DNA from: Candidatus Limnocylindrales bacterium
Lineage (GTDB): Bacteria; Chloroflexota; Limnocylindria; Limnocylindrales; CSP1-4
NCBI GenBank assembly: GCA_025450915.1
Contig: JANWLH010000055.1
Coordinates: forward strand, 1-43,064
Direction of reading: 5' to 3'
Length of the DNA: 43,064 bases
Shown one piece after another: positions 11,326 to 30,745 of this stretch (its first letter is position 1; every line of letters begins with the position of its first letter). The notes below the pieces were generated by a model. It was given only the letters and a program-made list of their open reading frames with translations. It did not search any database and was not told the DNA's origin. The position numbers were made by a program, and so were the translations under genes.

Positions 11326-11401
11326 TGGAGCGGGAGACGAGGTTCGAACTCGCGACATTCAGCTTGGAAGGCTGACGCTCTGCCAACTGAGCTACTCCCG
11401 C
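11326..11401 (-). tRNA. tRNA-Gly (anticodon TCC), CCA encoded
   Basis: The reverse complement folds as a full cloverleaf: acceptor GCGGGAG/CTCCCGC, D arm GCTC-GAGC, anticodon stem TCAGC/GCTGA with loop CTTCCAA (anticodon TCC), T arm GCGAG-TTCGAAC-CTCGT, discriminator T and encoded CCA. This is the only complete copy in the window. Its 3' 45 bases are duplicated at 10323 and its 5' 39 bases at 40027. Its upstream promoter now lies in island DNA. Confidence 0.95.
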
Positions 11402-12537: not shown

Positions 12538-12595
12538 AGTGCACTACTACCAGGTTGCCAAGTGTGTCGTGCAGACCTCTAGTATTATCGGAGGA
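12538..12595 (+). promoter_or_regulatory. Likely abiE promoter/operator region
   Basis: The 68 bases between integrase and abiEi contain a perfect AGTGCACT palindrome (12538-12545), a TTGCCA hexamer (12555-12560), an AT-rich TAGTATTAT (12580-12588) and a GGAGGA Shine-Dalgarno next to the ATG. AbiEi antitoxins usually repress their own promoter through nearby repeats; the palindrome is a candidate, but the -35/-10 spacing (19) is poor. Confidence 0.35.
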
Positions 12596-13210
12596 ATGAA
12601 CGACACAACCGCGCCAAGGCGGCCCAACTCGGAGGCCCTCTTTGGGACGGCCAGCGAGCAGGCGGGCTACTTCACGGCCGCTCAGGCGAGCACGGCAGGC
12701 TACAGCTGGACGCTGCTCTCGTATCACGCGAGACACGGCCGCTTCACGCGCGTCGCCAGGGGGCTGTATCGCTTCCGAGACTATCCCTCCTCCCCGCGTG
12801 AGGAGCTCATCGCCGCTTGGCTACGGCTGGCACCTGACGCCGCGGTCTCGCACGAGTCGGCACTCGAGGCTCTTGGCCTCTCCGATGTCATCCCGGACTC
12901 GATCCATCTGACGGTCCCGCGCGCGCGCCGAAAGCTGAGTCGAACGCCCGGCGTATCGATCCACACCACCATCCGACCCCTGGAGCTCACCGACGTCCTC
13001 AAACGTGACGGGGTTCGACTCACTGCGCCAGCTCGGACGATCGTGGACGTCGCCGAGGCTGGCACAGCCCCCGAGCAGGTGGTGCTTGCCACGCGCCAGG
13101 CGGTGGAGCGCGGACTGACGACCCCATCCCGAGTTCGGGCTGCAGCACGGTTTCGAAGCCGTCGAGTCCGGGATCTGATCGAGACCGCACTGGCCGAGGC
13201 TGGGAGGTGA
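12596..13210 (+). CDS. abiEi: AbiEi-type antitoxin / transcriptional regulator
   Basis: The start is ATG 12596 directly after GGAGGA. The 204-residue protein has an N-terminal winged helix (AGYFTAAQASTAGYSWTLLS, then HARHGRFTRVARGLYRF) typical of the AbiEi_4 domain. A C-terminal domain follows (AAVSHESALEALGLSDVIPD, then APARTIVDVAEAG). AbiEi is the antitoxin of the type IV AbiE system and represses the operon. Its stop overlaps the abiEii start (GTGA), the usual coupled arrangement. It lies immediately behind the island integrase, a common position for maintenance or defence modules. Confidence 0.88.
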   Translation: MNDTTAPRRPNSEALFGTASEQAGYFTAAQASTAGYSWTLLSYHARHGRFTRVARGLYRFRDYPSSPREELIAAWLRLAPDAAVSHESALEALGLSDVIPDSIHLTVPRARRKLSRTPGVSIHTTIRPLELTDVLKRDGVRLTAPARTIVDVAEAGTAPEQVVLATRQAVERGLTTPSRVRAAARFRSRRVRDLIETALAEAGR

Positions 13211-14121
13211 GGTACACCTCTGCGTCGGTCTTTCGCCAGGCACTCGAGACGCGGCTGCAGACCCTAAGCCGCGAAGACGGCGTCTCCATCGTCAGGCTCC
13301 GAAAGCAGGTCGCGTTCGATCGACTGCTGGCCAGGCTTCTCGTTGCCGCGCCGGGCCGGTGGGTGCTTAAGGGCGGACTCGCTCTCGAGTATCGGTTCGG
13401 TACCCGCGCCCGATCGACCAGAGACATGGATCTTGCGGGCTCCGCAGACGAGGACACAGCGACAGCCGACCTACTCGCCGCCCAAGATCTCGGCCTTGGC
13501 GACTACCTCGGATTCACGATCGAACGCACAGCCCGGCTCGATGACCTTGTCGAGGGATCGGCGGTCAGGTACCACGTTCGAGCGGACCTGGGCGGCCGTC
13601 GCTTCGAGGACTTCGTCGTCGACGTCGGCTTCGATCTGGCGCCCGGTTGGGACGCGGAGATGCTGAAGGGCACGGATCTCCTCGCGTTCGCCGGGATCGA
13701 CGCAGTAGAGGCGCCGTCGCTCGCGCTGGAGCTGCAGGTTGCCGAGAAGGTCCATGCCTACACCCGTGCCTACGGCCCAAAAGGCATCCGCAGTACGCGA
13801 GTCAAGGACATCGTGGATCTCGCTCTGATCGCGTCGACGGTCAGCCTGGACGCCGAGCGAATCCATCGCGCTCTGCGTGATACGTTCGGGCAGCGCGGCG
13901 ACCGCGATCTCCCCGTCTTGCTTGCTGCTCCGCCAAGTGACTGGGAGGTGCCGTTCCGACGCCTGGCTGCAGAGATCGGGATGAAGGTGGACCTCGGGCG
14001 GGGGCATGAGCTCGCGTCCCGGCTACTGGACCCGATACTCTCCGGCGAGATTGAGACTGGCACCTGGAGTGTTGCGACCGCGGGCTGGGTCACCGATCAT
14101 GCGGTGCGGGGACCACGATAG
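13207..14121 (+). CDS. abiEii: AbiEii-type nucleotidyltransferase toxin
   Basis: The 304-residue protein has the nucleotidyltransferase core of AbiEii/MenT toxins: WVLKGGLALEYRFG near residue 52, the catalytic acidic pair in ARSTRDMDLAG near 74, the third acidic strand in FVVDVGFDLAPGW, and the conserved ALELQVAEKVHAY and RVKDIVDLALIAS segments. Family members modify tRNA or other targets and arrest growth, protecting against phage or stabilising mobile DNA. The GTG start overlaps the abiEi stop, so translation is coupled. All core motifs look intact. Confidence 0.88.
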   Translation: MRYTSASVFRQALETRLQTLSREDGVSIVRLRKQVAFDRLLARLLVAAPGRWVLKGGLALEYRFGTRARSTRDMDLAGSADEDTATADLLAAQDLGLGDYLGFTIERTARLDDLVEGSAVRYHVRADLGGRRFEDFVVDVGFDLAPGWDAEMLKGTDLLAFAGIDAVEAPSLALELQVAEKVHAYTRAYGPKGIRSTRVKDIVDLALIASTVSLDAERIHRALRDTFGQRGDRDLPVLLAAPPSDWEVPFRRLAAEIGMKVDLGRGHELASRLLDPILSGEIETGTWSVATAGWVTDHAVRGPR

Positions 14122-18646: not shown

Positions 18647-18829
18647 TGACAGTCGATCTGGCAGGACGCCCGCAAAGGGCGAGCGGTGCGTTCCGGCGTT
18701 GGGACTGGATGACCGAACAGCGCCGCCGCCGCTAGACAAGACGATCTGCGCCCGGCGCTGATAGGGCATCGAGGATGCCCAGGTGCGGGCCAGCCGCGTC
18801 GCTCGCGGTTGCCGCGGTATCTCGCTGGC

Positions 18830-19268
18830 TCAGCGCCTGCGAGGGCTGTGCGGGGCACCCGCCGACAACTGCGCGAGTCGAGCGTCTCGCGCTGCGTTGG
18901 CGTCCCGTCCGCCAGCGATCTCGTCGCGACGGTCGGACACTCGATCCCGTTGGTCCGCGGAGCCATCGCGCTCGATTGCCGTCCGTTGGCGGGTGCGCCG
19001 GGTCACCTTGCGTGCGGCCGTCCGGGAGTCTCGGGCGGCGCGGGCGTCCTCGTAGGCAGACTCCGCCTCGGGGCTCAGGTGCTCGCGGTCCGCAGCCGCC
19101 TGGTCGCCATCGGCCGCAATCTGGTCCTGGTTCGAATAGGCCTAGGTCCGTGTTCGAAAGCGACTGGTCCGTCTCCGAGCGGCCCTGGTCCGCCGTGCTC
19201 GAGGCCTGGTCGGCGTTCGAGAGGAGCTGGTCCTCAGCCCGTAGTTCATCCATCGGAACGTTGCCCAC
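18830..19268 (-). pseudogene. Frameshifted DQ-repeat coiled-coil protein remnant
   Basis: From GTG 19268 or ATG 19253 the frame reads DQLLSNADQASSTADQGRSE then DQSLSNTDLGL and loses sense. Just downstream the neighbouring frame takes over with AYSNQDQIAADGDQAAADRE, continues with RD-rich heptads (RDEIAGGRDANAARDARLAQ) and stops at 18830. The two parts together are the DQxx(A/S)DxDQ...RDxxAxxRD coiled-coil module that often precedes GGDEF or PAS domains in high-GC bacteria. The switch occurs at the palindromic CCTAGGCCTA near 19135-19148. No output domain remains. I read this as a frameshifted fragment. Confidence 0.6.
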
Positions 19269-19325: not shown

Positions 19326-19331
19326 TACCCT
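19326..19331 (+). promoter_or_regulatory. -10 element TACCCT of a leaderless gene
   Basis: TACCCT ends seven bases before the ATG of the 71-aa protein, leaving no room for a leader or Shine-Dalgarno. The same hexamer and spacing precede its paralogue at 20501. Confidence 0.5.
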
Positions 19332-19338
19332 TTCGGTT

Positions 19339-19554
19339 ATGGCCCGACGACCCGACGCCGAGCGTCTCTACCAGGCTCGCCGGGCCACCCTGACCGCGCG
19401 GCTCATCAACCAGGCCGGACTCAGCCCGGAGAGCGCCGAGATGTGGGTTATCGCCTGGGAGGACGAGGCCGAGCTCCGTGGCCGGAGCGGCTGGTCCGTG
19501 TCGTTCTGGGACGGGGCATGGGGATGGATCGAGAAACAGCGCGCGGCTAGCTGA
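19339..19554 (+). CDS. Small conserved protein, paralogue A (71 aa)
   Basis: Start ATG 19339 (MARRPDAERLYQARRATLTA). The protein is closely related to the one encoded at 20501: both begin M(A/S)RRPD, share LY-A-RA-L--RL, then SAE-WV-AWE-EA--RG, and end with W--AW-WI--Q. The conserved AWE-EA core and paired Trp residues suggest a compact helical fold, perhaps a small regulator or inhibitor, but the family is unknown to me. Upstream of both copies is TACCCT placed 6-7 bases before the ATG, consistent with leaderless transcription. A terminator-like hairpin follows. Confidence 0.7.
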   Translation: MARRPDAERLYQARRATLTARLINQAGLSPESAEMWVIAWEDEAELRGRSGWSVSFWDGAWGWIEKQRAAS

Positions 19555-19668
19555 TCTAGCCGTCCACCGCCGCAGACGGGCGCCTTGGCGTTCTCAATAC
19601 ACCTCTCTTGACGCGCCCGCCACACTCATCTTCTGCCCGCCTCCTGCTCGCGGCGGGCGCGCCACGAG

Positions 19669-19701
19669 ACGCCCGGAGTAGCCCCACCCTGCTCCGGGCG
19701 T
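19669..19701 (+). terminator. Terminator-like stem-loop
   Basis: ACGCCCGGAGTAG pairs with CTGCTCCGGGCGT (12 of 13) around a 7-base loop, followed by TCTC. It lies 115 bases after the 71-aa gene and 78 bases before the next small gene. A weaker GCCCGC/GCGGGC hairpin precedes it near 19635-19658. Confidence 0.6.
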
Positions 19702-19778
19702 TCTCATGATCCAAAAGCGCGATCTCTGCGAGACTCGGGGGCCCGTAACGCCGAGCCATTCGGGAGACCGAACAAACA

Positions 19779-19985
19779 ATGGACCCCTTCGACCCGGTCG
19801 TGACCCTGGAGTCACTGCACCGCGCCTGGCAGCAGGCCGAGCGGCGCTACCGGGAGCTCCCGCCGGGCTCGCCCGAGGCCGCCGAAGCCCTTGCCGGTGT
19901 CAACGCACTCTGGGCGGCGTACGAGGAGGCACTCGGCAAGGCGCCCCGCCACGGCGCCGTCCGACCGCCCGAGTCCGAGGGCTAG
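19779..19985 (+). CDS. Hypothetical small helical protein (68 aa)
   Basis: The ATG follows a GGGAGA-containing leader. The product (MDPFDPVVTLESLHRAWQQA, then AEALAGVNALWAAYEEALG) is an amphipathic, mostly helical polypeptide with an acidic tail. No family is recognised. It sits between two terminator-like hairpins, so it appears to be a one-gene transcription unit, like its neighbours in this stretch. Confidence 0.55.
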   Translation: MDPFDPVVTLESLHRAWQQAERRYRELPPGSPEAAEALAGVNALWAAYEEALGKAPRHGAVRPPESEG

Positions 19986-20183
19986 GCGCCGGGCCCCCGC
20001 AAGATCCTCGGCCGATTGAGCGGCGGCCGCCATAGGCCGGACCGGGATACGACTGCAATACCGATGGGCTCCGTGACAACCTCTACTGGCGGGTGAGCTC
20101 GGTACAGTCGTCTCCACCACCGGTCGGCCCGGGTCGTCACATTCCCAGTCGGCCGGAGGTCTATCTCCCGCATATCCCTTCAC

Positions 20184-20221
20184 CCGAGAGCCCGACGCCT
20201 GGGGGCGTCCAGGGCTCTCGG
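20184..20221 (+). terminator. Long GC-rich stem-loop
   Basis: CCGAGAGCCC pairs with GGGCTCTCGG and, inside it, GACGCC with GGCGTC (a two-base bulge between), with a TGGG loop and CGTGTTT downstream. It is the strongest hairpin in the window and would terminate transcription from the 68-aa gene 200 bases upstream. Confidence 0.65.
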
Positions 20222-20500
20222 CGTGTTTACTGCCGATGGCCCCGCAGACGAGGAGCGGACGCGAGGCCGGCTGAGTAGACGCAGTAACGCCGGCAACCTC
20301 GGGAGTGGAGGGTCCGAGGCGCCGGCGCTACCGCAAGGAGGAACCCGGACCGACCGGTTTGCGAGGAGCCGGTCCGGATGGCGCATATGATCGGTGGCTG
20401 AGTCGTTCCTTCCGATCACAAAAGACCAAGGCCCGTATCAGGCGCCTTGCACGTGGCCGCGCCGTCTGAGGTGACACGTGGACCGCGCTACCCTGCGGCC
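20222..20500. other. Non-coding stretch with nested inverted repeats
   Basis: No gene is seen between the terminator and the paralogue B gene. CGCCGGC-AA-CCTCGG pairs with CCGAGG-C-GCCGGCG (about 20293-20331), and CCGGACCG pairs with CGGTCCGG (about 20347-20379). Together they predict a multi-stem RNA or a compact mobile repeat. It does not match a riboswitch I can recognise. Confidence 0.5.
20489..20494 (+). promoter_or_regulatory. -10 element TACCCT of a leaderless gene
   Basis: TACCCT ends six bases before ATG 20501. It is identical in sequence and nearly identical in spacing to the element before paralogue A. TGACA/TGTCA-like sequence lies 11-12 bases further upstream in both. Confidence 0.5.
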
Positions 20501-20713
20501 ATGTCCCGCCGTCCTGATCCCCTGAAGCTGTACGCGGCCCATCGCGCCGGCCTCTTCCAGCGGCTCGTCCGTGAGGCGAGGATCGGCGAGGCGAGCGCGG
20601 AAGCGTGGATCGTCGCCTGGGAGTCAGAGGCCCGCCAGCGTGGCCTGGACAGGCGCACAGGCGATTGGTGGGCTCCTGCGTGGGATTGGATCGCGGCGCA
20701 GCCGCGGGACTAG
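20501..20713 (+). CDS. Small conserved protein, paralogue B (70 aa)
   Basis: Start ATG 20501 (MSRRPDPLKLYAAHRAGLFQ), not the track's TTG/GTG-type start at 20447. It is the second member of the family seen at 19339, sharing the N-terminal RRPD block, AEAWIVAWESEARQRG and a C-terminal W-AW-WI-Q segment. Divergence between the two is substantial, so the duplication is not recent or the copies arrived separately. Its stop overlaps the stop of the convergent DUF6941-like gene in a palindromic CTAG. Confidence 0.7.
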   Translation: MSRRPDPLKLYAAHRAGLFQRLVREARIGEASAEAWIVAWESEARQRGLDRRTGDWWAPAWDWIAAQPRD

Positions 20714-27879: not shown

Positions 27880-29220
27880 ATGCCCGACCTCCCGCCCATT
27901 CCGCAACGTCCCCGATTTCCGGCCAGCCCTCGGCCGCACCTCCGCCCCCGGCCTCATCCGCACCTGCCGAATCGAACGCGAGGTGGGGCGGTTCGGCTGG
28001 GTCTGTTGCTCGCGATCCTCGGTCCCGGCCTTGTGTCTGGCTTCGCTGACAACGACGCAGGCGGGATCGCGACCTACTCACTCGCGGGGATCCAGTTCGG
28101 CTATGACCTGCTGTGGGTCATCTTGGCGAGCCAGATCGTGTTGTTCTTCACCCAAGAGGTCGGGGCCCGGCTTGGCCTCGCGACCGGGCAGGGCTTGACC
28201 GGGCTCGTCCGTGGTCGGTACGGGGTGCGCTGGGCCGCGTTCGTCGCCGTCCTGATGCTCATCGCCAACCTCGGCACGACCCTAGCCGAGTTCGCCGGGA
28301 TCGGCGCTGCCCTGAGCCTGTTTGGGGTGCCGATTGCAGTCAGCGCCGTTCTCTCCGCGGTAGCGATGGTCCTCCTCGTCTCGCGCGGCAGCTTCGGAAA
28401 AGTCCAGTTCCTGTTCGTGGCTGTCGGGATCGCCGTTTCGATTGCGTACCTCGCTTCGGCGATCCTCGCGAAACCCGACTGGGGGTTGGCAGTGACCCGG
28501 CTGGTCATCCCGAAACTCAGCGGCGCACCGGTGTATTGGCTCGCGGTCGTGGGCACGGTCGGGACGACGATTACGCCTTGGGGCCAGGCGTTCATCCAGG
28601 CCTATGTCGTGGACAAGGGGCTGGGGGTGAAGGCGCTCCTTGGCGAGCGGATCGATGTCGCGTTGGGCTCATGGCTCACCAACGTGATCGCTGGGTTCAT
28701 CGTCGTCGCCTGCGCGGCGACGTTGTGGGCCTCGGGTCAAACGAACATCACGGATGTGGCCCAGGCGGCCAAAGCGCTTGGCCCGCTGGCCGGCAGTTCG
28801 GCGACGCTCCTCTTCGCCGGCGGCCTCCTCGCCGCCTCGCTCCTGGGCCTCGGGGTCGTCCCGCTGACAAGTGCCTACACCGTCTGCGAGGCGTTCGGTT
28901 GGGAGGCCGGCGTCCAGTGGCGCTGGCGCGACGCCCCGGTGTTCTATGGCCTCCTTGCCTTCTTTGTCGGATTCGCGGCCCTCGTCGTATTGATCCCAGG
29001 CTTACCGCTGTTCCAGGTGATCGTGCTTTCGCAGGTGCTCAATGGGCTGCTCCTGCCGTTCATCCTCGTGTTTGTGATGTTGCTCGCCCGGGACCGGTCC
29101 CTGATGGGCGCGCTGCGGAGCGGGCGTTTGCTAACTGTGATCGGCTGGGCGGTCACGGTGATCCTCGCCGCCATGTCGGTGGTGCTCGTGTACGTCAGCC
29201 TCGCACCGCCGGCGTCATAG
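27880..29220 (+). CDS. NRAMP-related divalent metal transporter 1
   Basis: The 446-residue protein has a proline/His-rich N-terminus (HLRPRPHPHLP) and about eleven membrane helices. TM1 reads GPGLVSGFADNDAGGIATYS: the canonical Asp-Pro-Gly-Asn metal site is replaced by Asp-Asn-Asp-Ala-Gly-Gly. TM6 reads GTTITPWGQAF, with Thr-Pro-Trp where classical manganese/iron NRAMPs have Met-Pro-His. Loss of that methionine is a feature of NRAMP-related magnesium transporters, so Mg2+ or Mn2+ uptake is plausible; specificity is inferred. It lies 17 bases after the PRC/MgtE-N gene and is probably co-transcribed. Confidence 0.82.
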   Translation: MPDLPPIPQRPRFPASPRPHLRPRPHPHLPNRTRGGAVRLGLLLAILGPGLVSGFADNDAGGIATYSLAGIQFGYDLLWVILASQIVLFFTQEVGARLGLATGQGLTGLVRGRYGVRWAAFVAVLMLIANLGTTLAEFAGIGAALSLFGVPIAVSAVLSAVAMVLLVSRGSFGKVQFLFVAVGIAVSIAYLASAILAKPDWGLAVTRLVIPKLSGAPVYWLAVVGTVGTTITPWGQAFIQAYVVDKGLGVKALLGERIDVALGSWLTNVIAGFIVVACAATLWASGQTNITDVAQAAKALGPLAGSSATLLFAGGLLAASLLGLGVVPLTSAYTVCEAFGWEAGVQWRWRDAPVFYGLLAFFVGFAALVVLIPGLPLFQVIVLSQVLNGLLLPFILVFVMLLARDRSLMGALRSGRLLTVIGWAVTVILAAMSVVLVYVSLAPPAS

Positions 29221-29395
29221 TGCTCTCGGCGCGATTGGTCGCTTCCTGTGCGGCCCGAGCATCAGGAGAACCCAGTCGGGGCGACGACCGACCTTTCATC
29301 TGCCTAGCGACCGAACACCTCGATGATCGTCATCACACTGGCGAGAGTCGGAAGAGCCACATTCGATGGGCTGCGCGAGAAGGTGGGGAGCGCTC

Positions 29396-30745
29396 ATGAC
29401 TGAGCCAGGGCCGTCAACGACCGCCGCCGAACCGCGAGTGGACCCCAATCGCCCGGTCGATCCCAAGACGGCTGAACTACGGGCCGAGAAGAACCCCCTG
29501 AAGCGGTTTGCGAAGGTCCTCGGGCCAGGCCTGATCACCGGCGCCTCGGACGACGATCCATCGGGCATCGGAACGTATGCCCAGGCCGGTGCCCAATATG
29601 GCTATGCGACGCTCTGGACGACGGTCGTGATGCTGCCGATGATGATCAGCGTCCAGTACATCTGCGCCAAGATCGGCCTGGTGTCGGGCAAGGGTCTCGC
29701 CGGTGTCCTGCGCGAGCATCATCCGCGACTCCTCTACCCTGCGGTCCTGGCCCTCGTCGTCGCCAATACCCTCAACGCCGGGGCGGACATCGGGGCGATC
29801 GCTGCGGCGATCAACCTGCTCGTGCCGATCCCCGCGATCGTGTTCATCGTGCCGGTGAGTCTGGCGATCGTCGCCCTCCAGGTCTTCGGCGGCTATCACC
29901 TGATCGATCGGGTCTTCAAGTGGCTGGCCCTCGCGCTGCTGGCGTACCTAGGGGCGGCGCTCTTCGCCCGGCCGGACGTCGTCCGGGTCCTGGCGGGCAC
30001 GCTGATCCCGACGATTCGGCTGGACCCGGCGTTCATCGGGATCCTCGTTGCCATCCTGGGGACGACGATCTCGCCGTACCTATTCTTCTGGCAGGCGAGC
30101 CAGGAGGTCGAGGAGCAGATCAGCATCGGCCGACGCCGCCTGCGTCAACGCCAGGGCGCCTCGGGCTTCGAGCTCAAGTACGCCCTCTGGGACACCGTCG
30201 CCGGGATGGTCTTCTCCGAGGTCGTGGCCTACTTCATCATCCTCGCGACCGGGGCCACCCTGTTCGTCGCGGGCAAGACCAATATCACCTCGGCGACCGA
30301 TGCCGCGCAGGCCCTTCGGCCATTGGCCGGCGACGCTGCTGCGATCCTGCTCGCGATCGGGCTCATCGGCGCCGGGGTGCTGGCGGTCCCGGTCCTGACC
30401 GGGTCCGCGGCCTATGGCGTCTCGGAGGCGTTCGGCTGGAAGTCGGGCCTCGACAGCAAGCCCGGCCGCGCACCGCAGTTCTACGCTGTGATCGTCGCCG
30501 CGACCCTGGTCGGTATGGCGCTGAACTTCCTGGGGATCAATCCGATCACGGCGCTCGTCCTGAGCGCGGTCCTCAATGGTCTGCTCGCCGGACCGCTGCT
30601 GGTCCTGGTGATGCTCGTCTCGAACGACCGCCGGGTGCTCGGTGAGCGGACGAATGGCCGGCTCCTGAACACCATTGGCTGGGTAACGACGGGCGTGATG
30701 AGCTTGGCGGCGGTCGGCCTGGTCGTGACGACGATCTTCGGGTGA
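29396..30745 (+). CDS. NRAMP-related divalent metal transporter 2
   Basis: The start is ATG 29396 after GGGGAG. The 449-residue protein has TM1 GPGLITGASDDDPSGIGTYA (Asp-Asp-Asp-Pro-Ser-Gly instead of DPGN) and TM6 GTTISPYLFFWQASQEVEEQ (Ser-Pro-Tyr instead of Met-Pro-His). It is clearly homologous to its neighbour but not a recent duplicate. The acidic DDDPSG and the missing TM6 methionine again point to a hard-metal ion such as Mg2+ or Mn2+. A basic cytosolic loop (IGRRRLRQRQG) is notable. A 175-base spacer without recognisable riboswitch separates it from transporter 1. Confidence 0.85.
   Translation: MTEPGPSTTAAEPRVDPNRPVDPKTAELRAEKNPLKRFAKVLGPGLITGASDDDPSGIGTYAQAGAQYGYATLWTTVVMLPMMISVQYICAKIGLVSGKGLAGVLREHHPRLLYPAVLALVVANTLNAGADIGAIAAAINLLVPIPAIVFIVPVSLAIVALQVFGGYHLIDRVFKWLALALLAYLGAALFARPDVVRVLAGTLIPTIRLDPAFIGILVAILGTTISPYLFFWQASQEVEEQISIGRRRLRQRQGASGFELKYALWDTVAGMVFSEVVAYFIILATGATLFVAGKTNITSATDAAQALRPLAGDAAAILLAIGLIGAGVLAVPVLTGSAAYGVSEAFGWKSGLDSKPGRAPQFYAVIVAATLVGMALNFLGINPITALVLSAVLNGLLAGPLLVLVMLVSNDRRVLGERTNGRLLNTIGWVTTGVMSLAAVGLVVTTIFG

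Follow-up and report, generated by a model that had tools for sequence, protein, structure and literature searches.

Two small paralogous genes on a contig from an uncultured soil bacterium of the Limnocylindria (Chloroflexota) were found to represent a real, previously undescribed and lineage-restricted family of small proteins, designated here family A. The window, i.e., the whole stretch of DNA that was analysed, is contig C55 with 43,064 bases and belongs to a host MAG of 2.48 Mb that is 69.6% complete (G000). Members of family A are about 70 aa long and carry, in order, the motifs Y/H-x-A-R-R-A, R-L, A-E-x-W-x-x-A-W-E-x-E-A-x-x-R-G-L-D and W-x-x-A-W-x-W-I-x-x-Q; both window proteins (P0001 and P0002) fit this definition. 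Searches of Pfam, NCBIfam, PHROGs and PADLOC returned no match to the family at or above curated or conventional cut-offs, and PDB sequences gave none either (best E = 0.82). The relevant features of the window are collected in Table 1.

Table 1. Features of the window, with the evidence behind each assignment.
Feature	Position	Strand	Basis or remark
Family A paralogue 1 (P0001, 71 aa)	19339-19554	+	ATG 19339 to stop 19554; homologue searches; alignment A1
Family A paralogue 2 (P0002, 70 aa)	20501-20713	+	ATG 20501 to stop 20713; homologue searches; AlphaFold2
Putative leaderless start signal, paralogue 1	19326-19338	+	TACCCT 19326-19331, 7 nt, ATG
Putative leaderless start signal, paralogue 2	20489-20500	+	TACCCT 20489-20494, 6 nt, ATG
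Module B protein (P0003, 68 aa)	19779-19985	+	Predicted two-helix hairpin (10-26, 32-54)
Two strong terminator-like hairpins between paralogue 1 and module B	19555-19720	+	z = -4.58
DQ-repeat gene with a frameshift	18732-19268 (remnant 18830-19268)	-	Divergent from paralogue 1; homologous to the N-terminal region of GGDEF cyclases
AbiEi antitoxin and AbiEii nucleotidyltransferase toxin (type IV toxin-antitoxin)	12539-14121	+	Strong PADLOC matches
Two Nramp-family transporter genes in tandem	27880-29220, 29366-30745	+	Pfam E ~1e-81 each
tRNA	11326-11401		Sole one in window; 8 kb from family A genes

An earlier, sequence-only reading had described the pair as paralogues of an unrecognised family, and the comparison bears this out. 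In alignment A1, which comprises 12 family A members, P0001 and P0002 are 44% identical; their alignment score of 163 compares with a mean of 31 and a maximum of 68 in 5000 shuffles (z = 21.6). The E-value is 3e-13 between the two proteins, and 1.6e-30 and 2e-28 against the family profile containing both. The shared blocks named in that reading were all recovered, namely RRPD, AWEDEAELRG in P0001 with AWESEARQRG in P0002, and WDGAWGWIEKQ with WAPAWDWIAAQ. The genes lie on the same strand with 946 bases between them, close to the 950 reported, and the intervening DNA indeed holds hairpins and another small gene, that of P0003; the strong hairpins after paralogue 1 are consistent with the description of single-gene units. 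A recent tandem duplication within the window was considered and rejected, as the DNA similarity of the two genes amounts to short chance repeats only. The family A tree is mostly unresolved.

Among the genomes searched, family A is confined to the host's own lineage. The A1 profile matched 14 of the 107 genomes of the host's bacterial family (CSP1-4, Limnocylindria), spread over 7 of its 27 genera, with about two dozen matches when intact, partial and broken copies are counted. Over 177 genomes of the class, the broader A7 profile recovered the identical 14 genomes and none in the rest of the class outside that bacterial family, to which the matches in a phylum-wide sample of 301 genomes were restricted as well. 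A scan of ~85,000 species for close members returned four loci, all in Chloroflexi metagenome genomes, although it used A2, which is narrower than A1, and distant relatives could be missed. The named relatives with family A are the Chloroflexi bacteria 'Chersky.17_25', 'palsa_1033' and 'palsa_1068'. The window's genome itself holds the family at three more loci, on contigs C86 and C146 and as a frameshifted copy on C72, a remnant whose DNA is 84.6% identical to part of paralogue 2. An iterative profile search had been proposed as a check on the pair, with a match to a characterised family or a lack of further homologues named as what would speak against it; the search yielded homologues in 14 genomes and 7 genera and no match to a characterised family in the libraries.

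Across the 12 members of A1, residues L22, W40, A44, W63 and I64 are invariant, and R15, R21, A33, E41, E43 and W57 are nearly so. Purifying selection acts among close family A members: six of them show dN of 0.24-0.60 with dS of at least 0.78 (0.24 and 0.78 for the pair P0002/G003:C33), dN/dS of close pairs is ~0.3, and close intact copies display a third-position excess. Frameshifts, truncations or internal stop codons affect at least five copies, and the broken or partial ones include those at C72, G401, G036 and G006:C20; since several copies are in this condition, the function of family A is dispensable.

The identical promoter geometry ascribed to the two genes was confirmed and can be attributed to a leaderless start signal common to both, in which the hexamer TACCCT ends 7 bases (P0001) and 6 bases (P0002) 5' of the ATG. 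Among the 11 family A members with a plausible start, a TANNNT hexamer stands 6-7 bases 5' of the start codon in 8, the window pair included, the TANNNT-N6 spacing being found again in six homologues besides P0001 and P0002; a Shine-Dalgarno sequence is absent from all 11. The corresponding background in the window is 1% of all ATGs with a TANNNT hexamer at 5-8 bases, and the enrichment has a binomial probability of ~1e-14 with the relatedness of the sequences ignored. TANNNT is the leaderless signal of high-GC bacteria and lies 6-7 bp 5' of the ORF in Deinococcus (PMC3160421, PMC12340547). With their -10 hexamer at 6-7 bases and no Shine-Dalgarno sequence, family A genes appear, from their upstream DNA, to be leaderless like those of Deinococcus and Actinobacteria (PMC12340547, PMC3160421), a likeness that concerns the mode of expression and not the protein family. 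The signal supports the annotated start codons. A sigma-70 promoter scan revealed none with a standard -35 element. In four members (P0001, P0002, L020 and L022), TGTCA or TGACA occurs 10-12 bases 5' of the -10 hexamer, possibly as an operator or an unusual -35.

Structure prediction, likewise suggested earlier as a check, was performed with AlphaFold2 on six sequences. The predicted fold of family A consists of three helices, located in P0002 at residues 7-24, 30-47 and 58-65 (pLDDT 85.3, pTM 0.69). Foldseek searches with the model identified no fold match at E <= 0.001 in the PDB, nor did comparison with viral structure models at the same threshold.

The gene between the two paralogues encodes a second module, B, for which single-sequence AlphaFold2 modelling of P0003 gave a two-helix hairpin. 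Of the 177 genomes of the class, 32 contain module B, which usually makes up the C-terminal end of a larger protein; many of these proteins have a helical N-terminus without annotation. It ends three PAS-like proteins (L075, L107 and L108), the PAS assignment being sub-threshold in L075 (E = 0.015) and made by resemblance in the other two. At L072 (G007:C18, 1174-2508, minus strand), an open frame of 445 residues contains sigma-70 region 4 (Sigma70_r4_2, E = 2.5e-7), then module B, then a further C-terminal region. Like family A, the module B proteins of Limnocylindria are small all-helical modules with a conserved Trp and Ala, and at several loci they adjoin A or are fused to it, but they have two helices rather than three and occur in 32 instead of 14 of the class genomes. 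Homology between A and B was rejected on profile comparison (hhalign probability 4.6%). DUF4913 (PF16259) matches residues 7-22 of P0003 below threshold (E = 0.015; 15.8 bits, cut-off 25), a short and partial match to module B and not to family A.

A-B fusion, A-B linkage and A-DQ linkage are all observed. On C146 of the window's genome, A and B share one ORF of 195 aa, whose B part matches P0003 at 75% identity; a second joint ORF, on C86 (216 aa), has a B that has diverged. At G003:C104 an A remnant lies just upstream of a B gene, and at G007:C19 the B neighbour of A is convergent and weak. Three of the five module B copies in the window's genome are located within 1 kb of an A copy (P ~1e-6, or ~1e-4 without the window). 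The same holds, with the same probabilities, for three of the four copies of the DQ repeat, which elsewhere in the bacterial family forms the N-terminal extension of GGDEF cyclases (GGDEF E = 2.3e-27 in L117); the DQ genes of the window's genus stand alone, without a GGDEF domain.

The survey of neighbours in other genomes, the remaining check proposed, was carried out as an all-versus-all comparison of the ORFs within 6 kb of 24 family A copies. No conserved operon emerged: only A, B and DQ recur past a few locus pairs, and ORFs antisense to A recur trivially. Most copies in other genera are lone genes among ordinary chromosomal genes with no constant neighbour. In two genera, A is found downstream of genes resembling der and gpsA (read from translations); in two others (L058 4307-7460 and L060 3567-6435, both on the plus strand), a complete or partial A gene directly follows genes for a ParB-N6/N4 methylase and a zinc-knuckle-like protein (C..DGR.C...FCFWH) that has no Pfam match. 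The GT87 gene upstream of P0001 (17177-18646) is ~80% identical in DNA to a congener copy 6 kb from a family A member. The hairpin-rich DNA at 19575-19720 is 75% conserved, inverted, in a congener (G001:C105:11576-11700), with no third site in the 21 genomes searched; a mobile element carrying family A was discarded as an explanation because this DNA has only one other copy.

The sequence-only reading had further called the pair island-borne and a candidate for an undescribed regulator, inhibitor or anti-defence family. The first of these found no support: neither an integrase nor other mobile-element genes were found among 20 window genes run through Pfam, and a viral, phage or plasmid origin was rejected, with all searches for relatives of A and B in phages, plasmids and viral contigs empty. 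The lone chromosomal settings, together with this absence, argue against island cargo and against an anti-defence function. The suggestion of a regulator would fit the fusions to a seemingly signalling-associated module. Because A is repeatedly fused to or beside parts of signalling proteins, it is probably a small signalling helper rather than a phage or defence gene.

As to its more specific role, the best-supported reading, which we propose tentatively and regard as quite possible, is that family A works together with module B in signalling, either as a small adaptor for protein interactions or as a regulatory subunit. Family A would then be a chromosomally encoded, cytosolic, three-helix, non-enzymatic protein made from leaderless transcripts, and module B would be the helical hairpin with which PAS-like, sigma-region-4-like and other probable signalling proteins of these bacteria end. 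The partners would be transcribed separately in the A-B-A arrangement of the window, and at two other loci they would form one polypeptide. We infer that A and B touch or share one pathway, that this pathway is signalling and that A serves as a non-enzymatic adaptor. Several observations count against the adaptor role: strong A-B and A-DQ linkage does not extend beyond the window's genome and genus, most A copies in other genera being lone genes; the further B neighbour at G007:C19 is convergent and weak; several copies of A are broken or partial; and no fold match identifies a binding surface. A bolder extension, which strikes us as rather speculative, is that Limnocylindria, and no other group, possess a signalling toolkit with A, B and the DQ repeat as its interchangeable components. 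Domains of sigma-like, PAS-like and diguanylate-cyclase proteins would there serve as free adaptors in the form of stand-alone copies, and A would be a novel docking partner of three helices, capable of fusion to B.

Other roles were weighed against the same data. Family A could be a small DNA-binding transcription factor whose basic helix 1 and RRPD arm contact DNA while the Trp-rich helix 3 closes the core. The net charge of helix 1 (+3 to +5), a pI above 9 in four of the five members computed, the near-invariance of Arg15 and Arg21 and the mostly single, apparently leaderless genes would all suit such a factor, but P0001 has a pI of 6.2, and helix 2, at 18 residues and with a largely acidic composition, does not resemble a helix-turn-helix recognition helix. 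HTH profiles were unmatched save for a weak HHH_5 hit in one member (E = 0.21), and Foldseek returned no DNA-binding fold at E <= 0.001, so that we consider this role unlikely. Still less probable is a role of A as antitoxin, inhibitor or anti-defence protein, perhaps with B as a two-gene toxin-antitoxin unit. The small paired genes, A then B, in multiple copies, the patchy distribution and frequent decay, the AbiEi/AbiEii pair 5 kb upstream of the family A genes and the position of A after the ParB-DNA methylase gene in two other genera would be in keeping with it. A toxin-antitoxin system would, however, have an adjacent toxin gene in a conserved operon, and A has no constant neighbour, B being missing beside it in most genomes; B is also found, unlike a toxin, as a tail domain in PAS-like and sigma-like proteins. 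A phage anti-defence protein would be carried by phages or prophages, where A has neither a sequence relative nor a fold match at E <= 0.001, and PADLOC contains no match to the family.

The broken copies and the presence in just 14 of 107 genomes raise the question of whether A is an orphan family that is decaying and weakly constrained. It would sit in the long spacers of a bacterial family whose genomes experience relaxed selection, and in most of them it would now have no specific role. This would agree with the description of CSP1-4 as a group in which selection is relaxed, proteins are redundant and spacers are the longest in its class, Limnocylindria (PMC13212565). The reading appears doubtful, since close intact copies show a dN/dS of ~0.3 and an excess at third positions, five residues are invariant across 12 members and the start signal is kept in 8 of 11.

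With these results, two small genes that had lacked annotation become a defined family, equipped with a profile, a rule for the start signal and, in module B, a partner that can be tested. The start signal would point to leaderless translation in this class of Chloroflexota. Limnocylindria are abundant and uncultivated, and the A-B fusions, by naming the likely partner of family A, offer an entry to their unannotated signalling genes.
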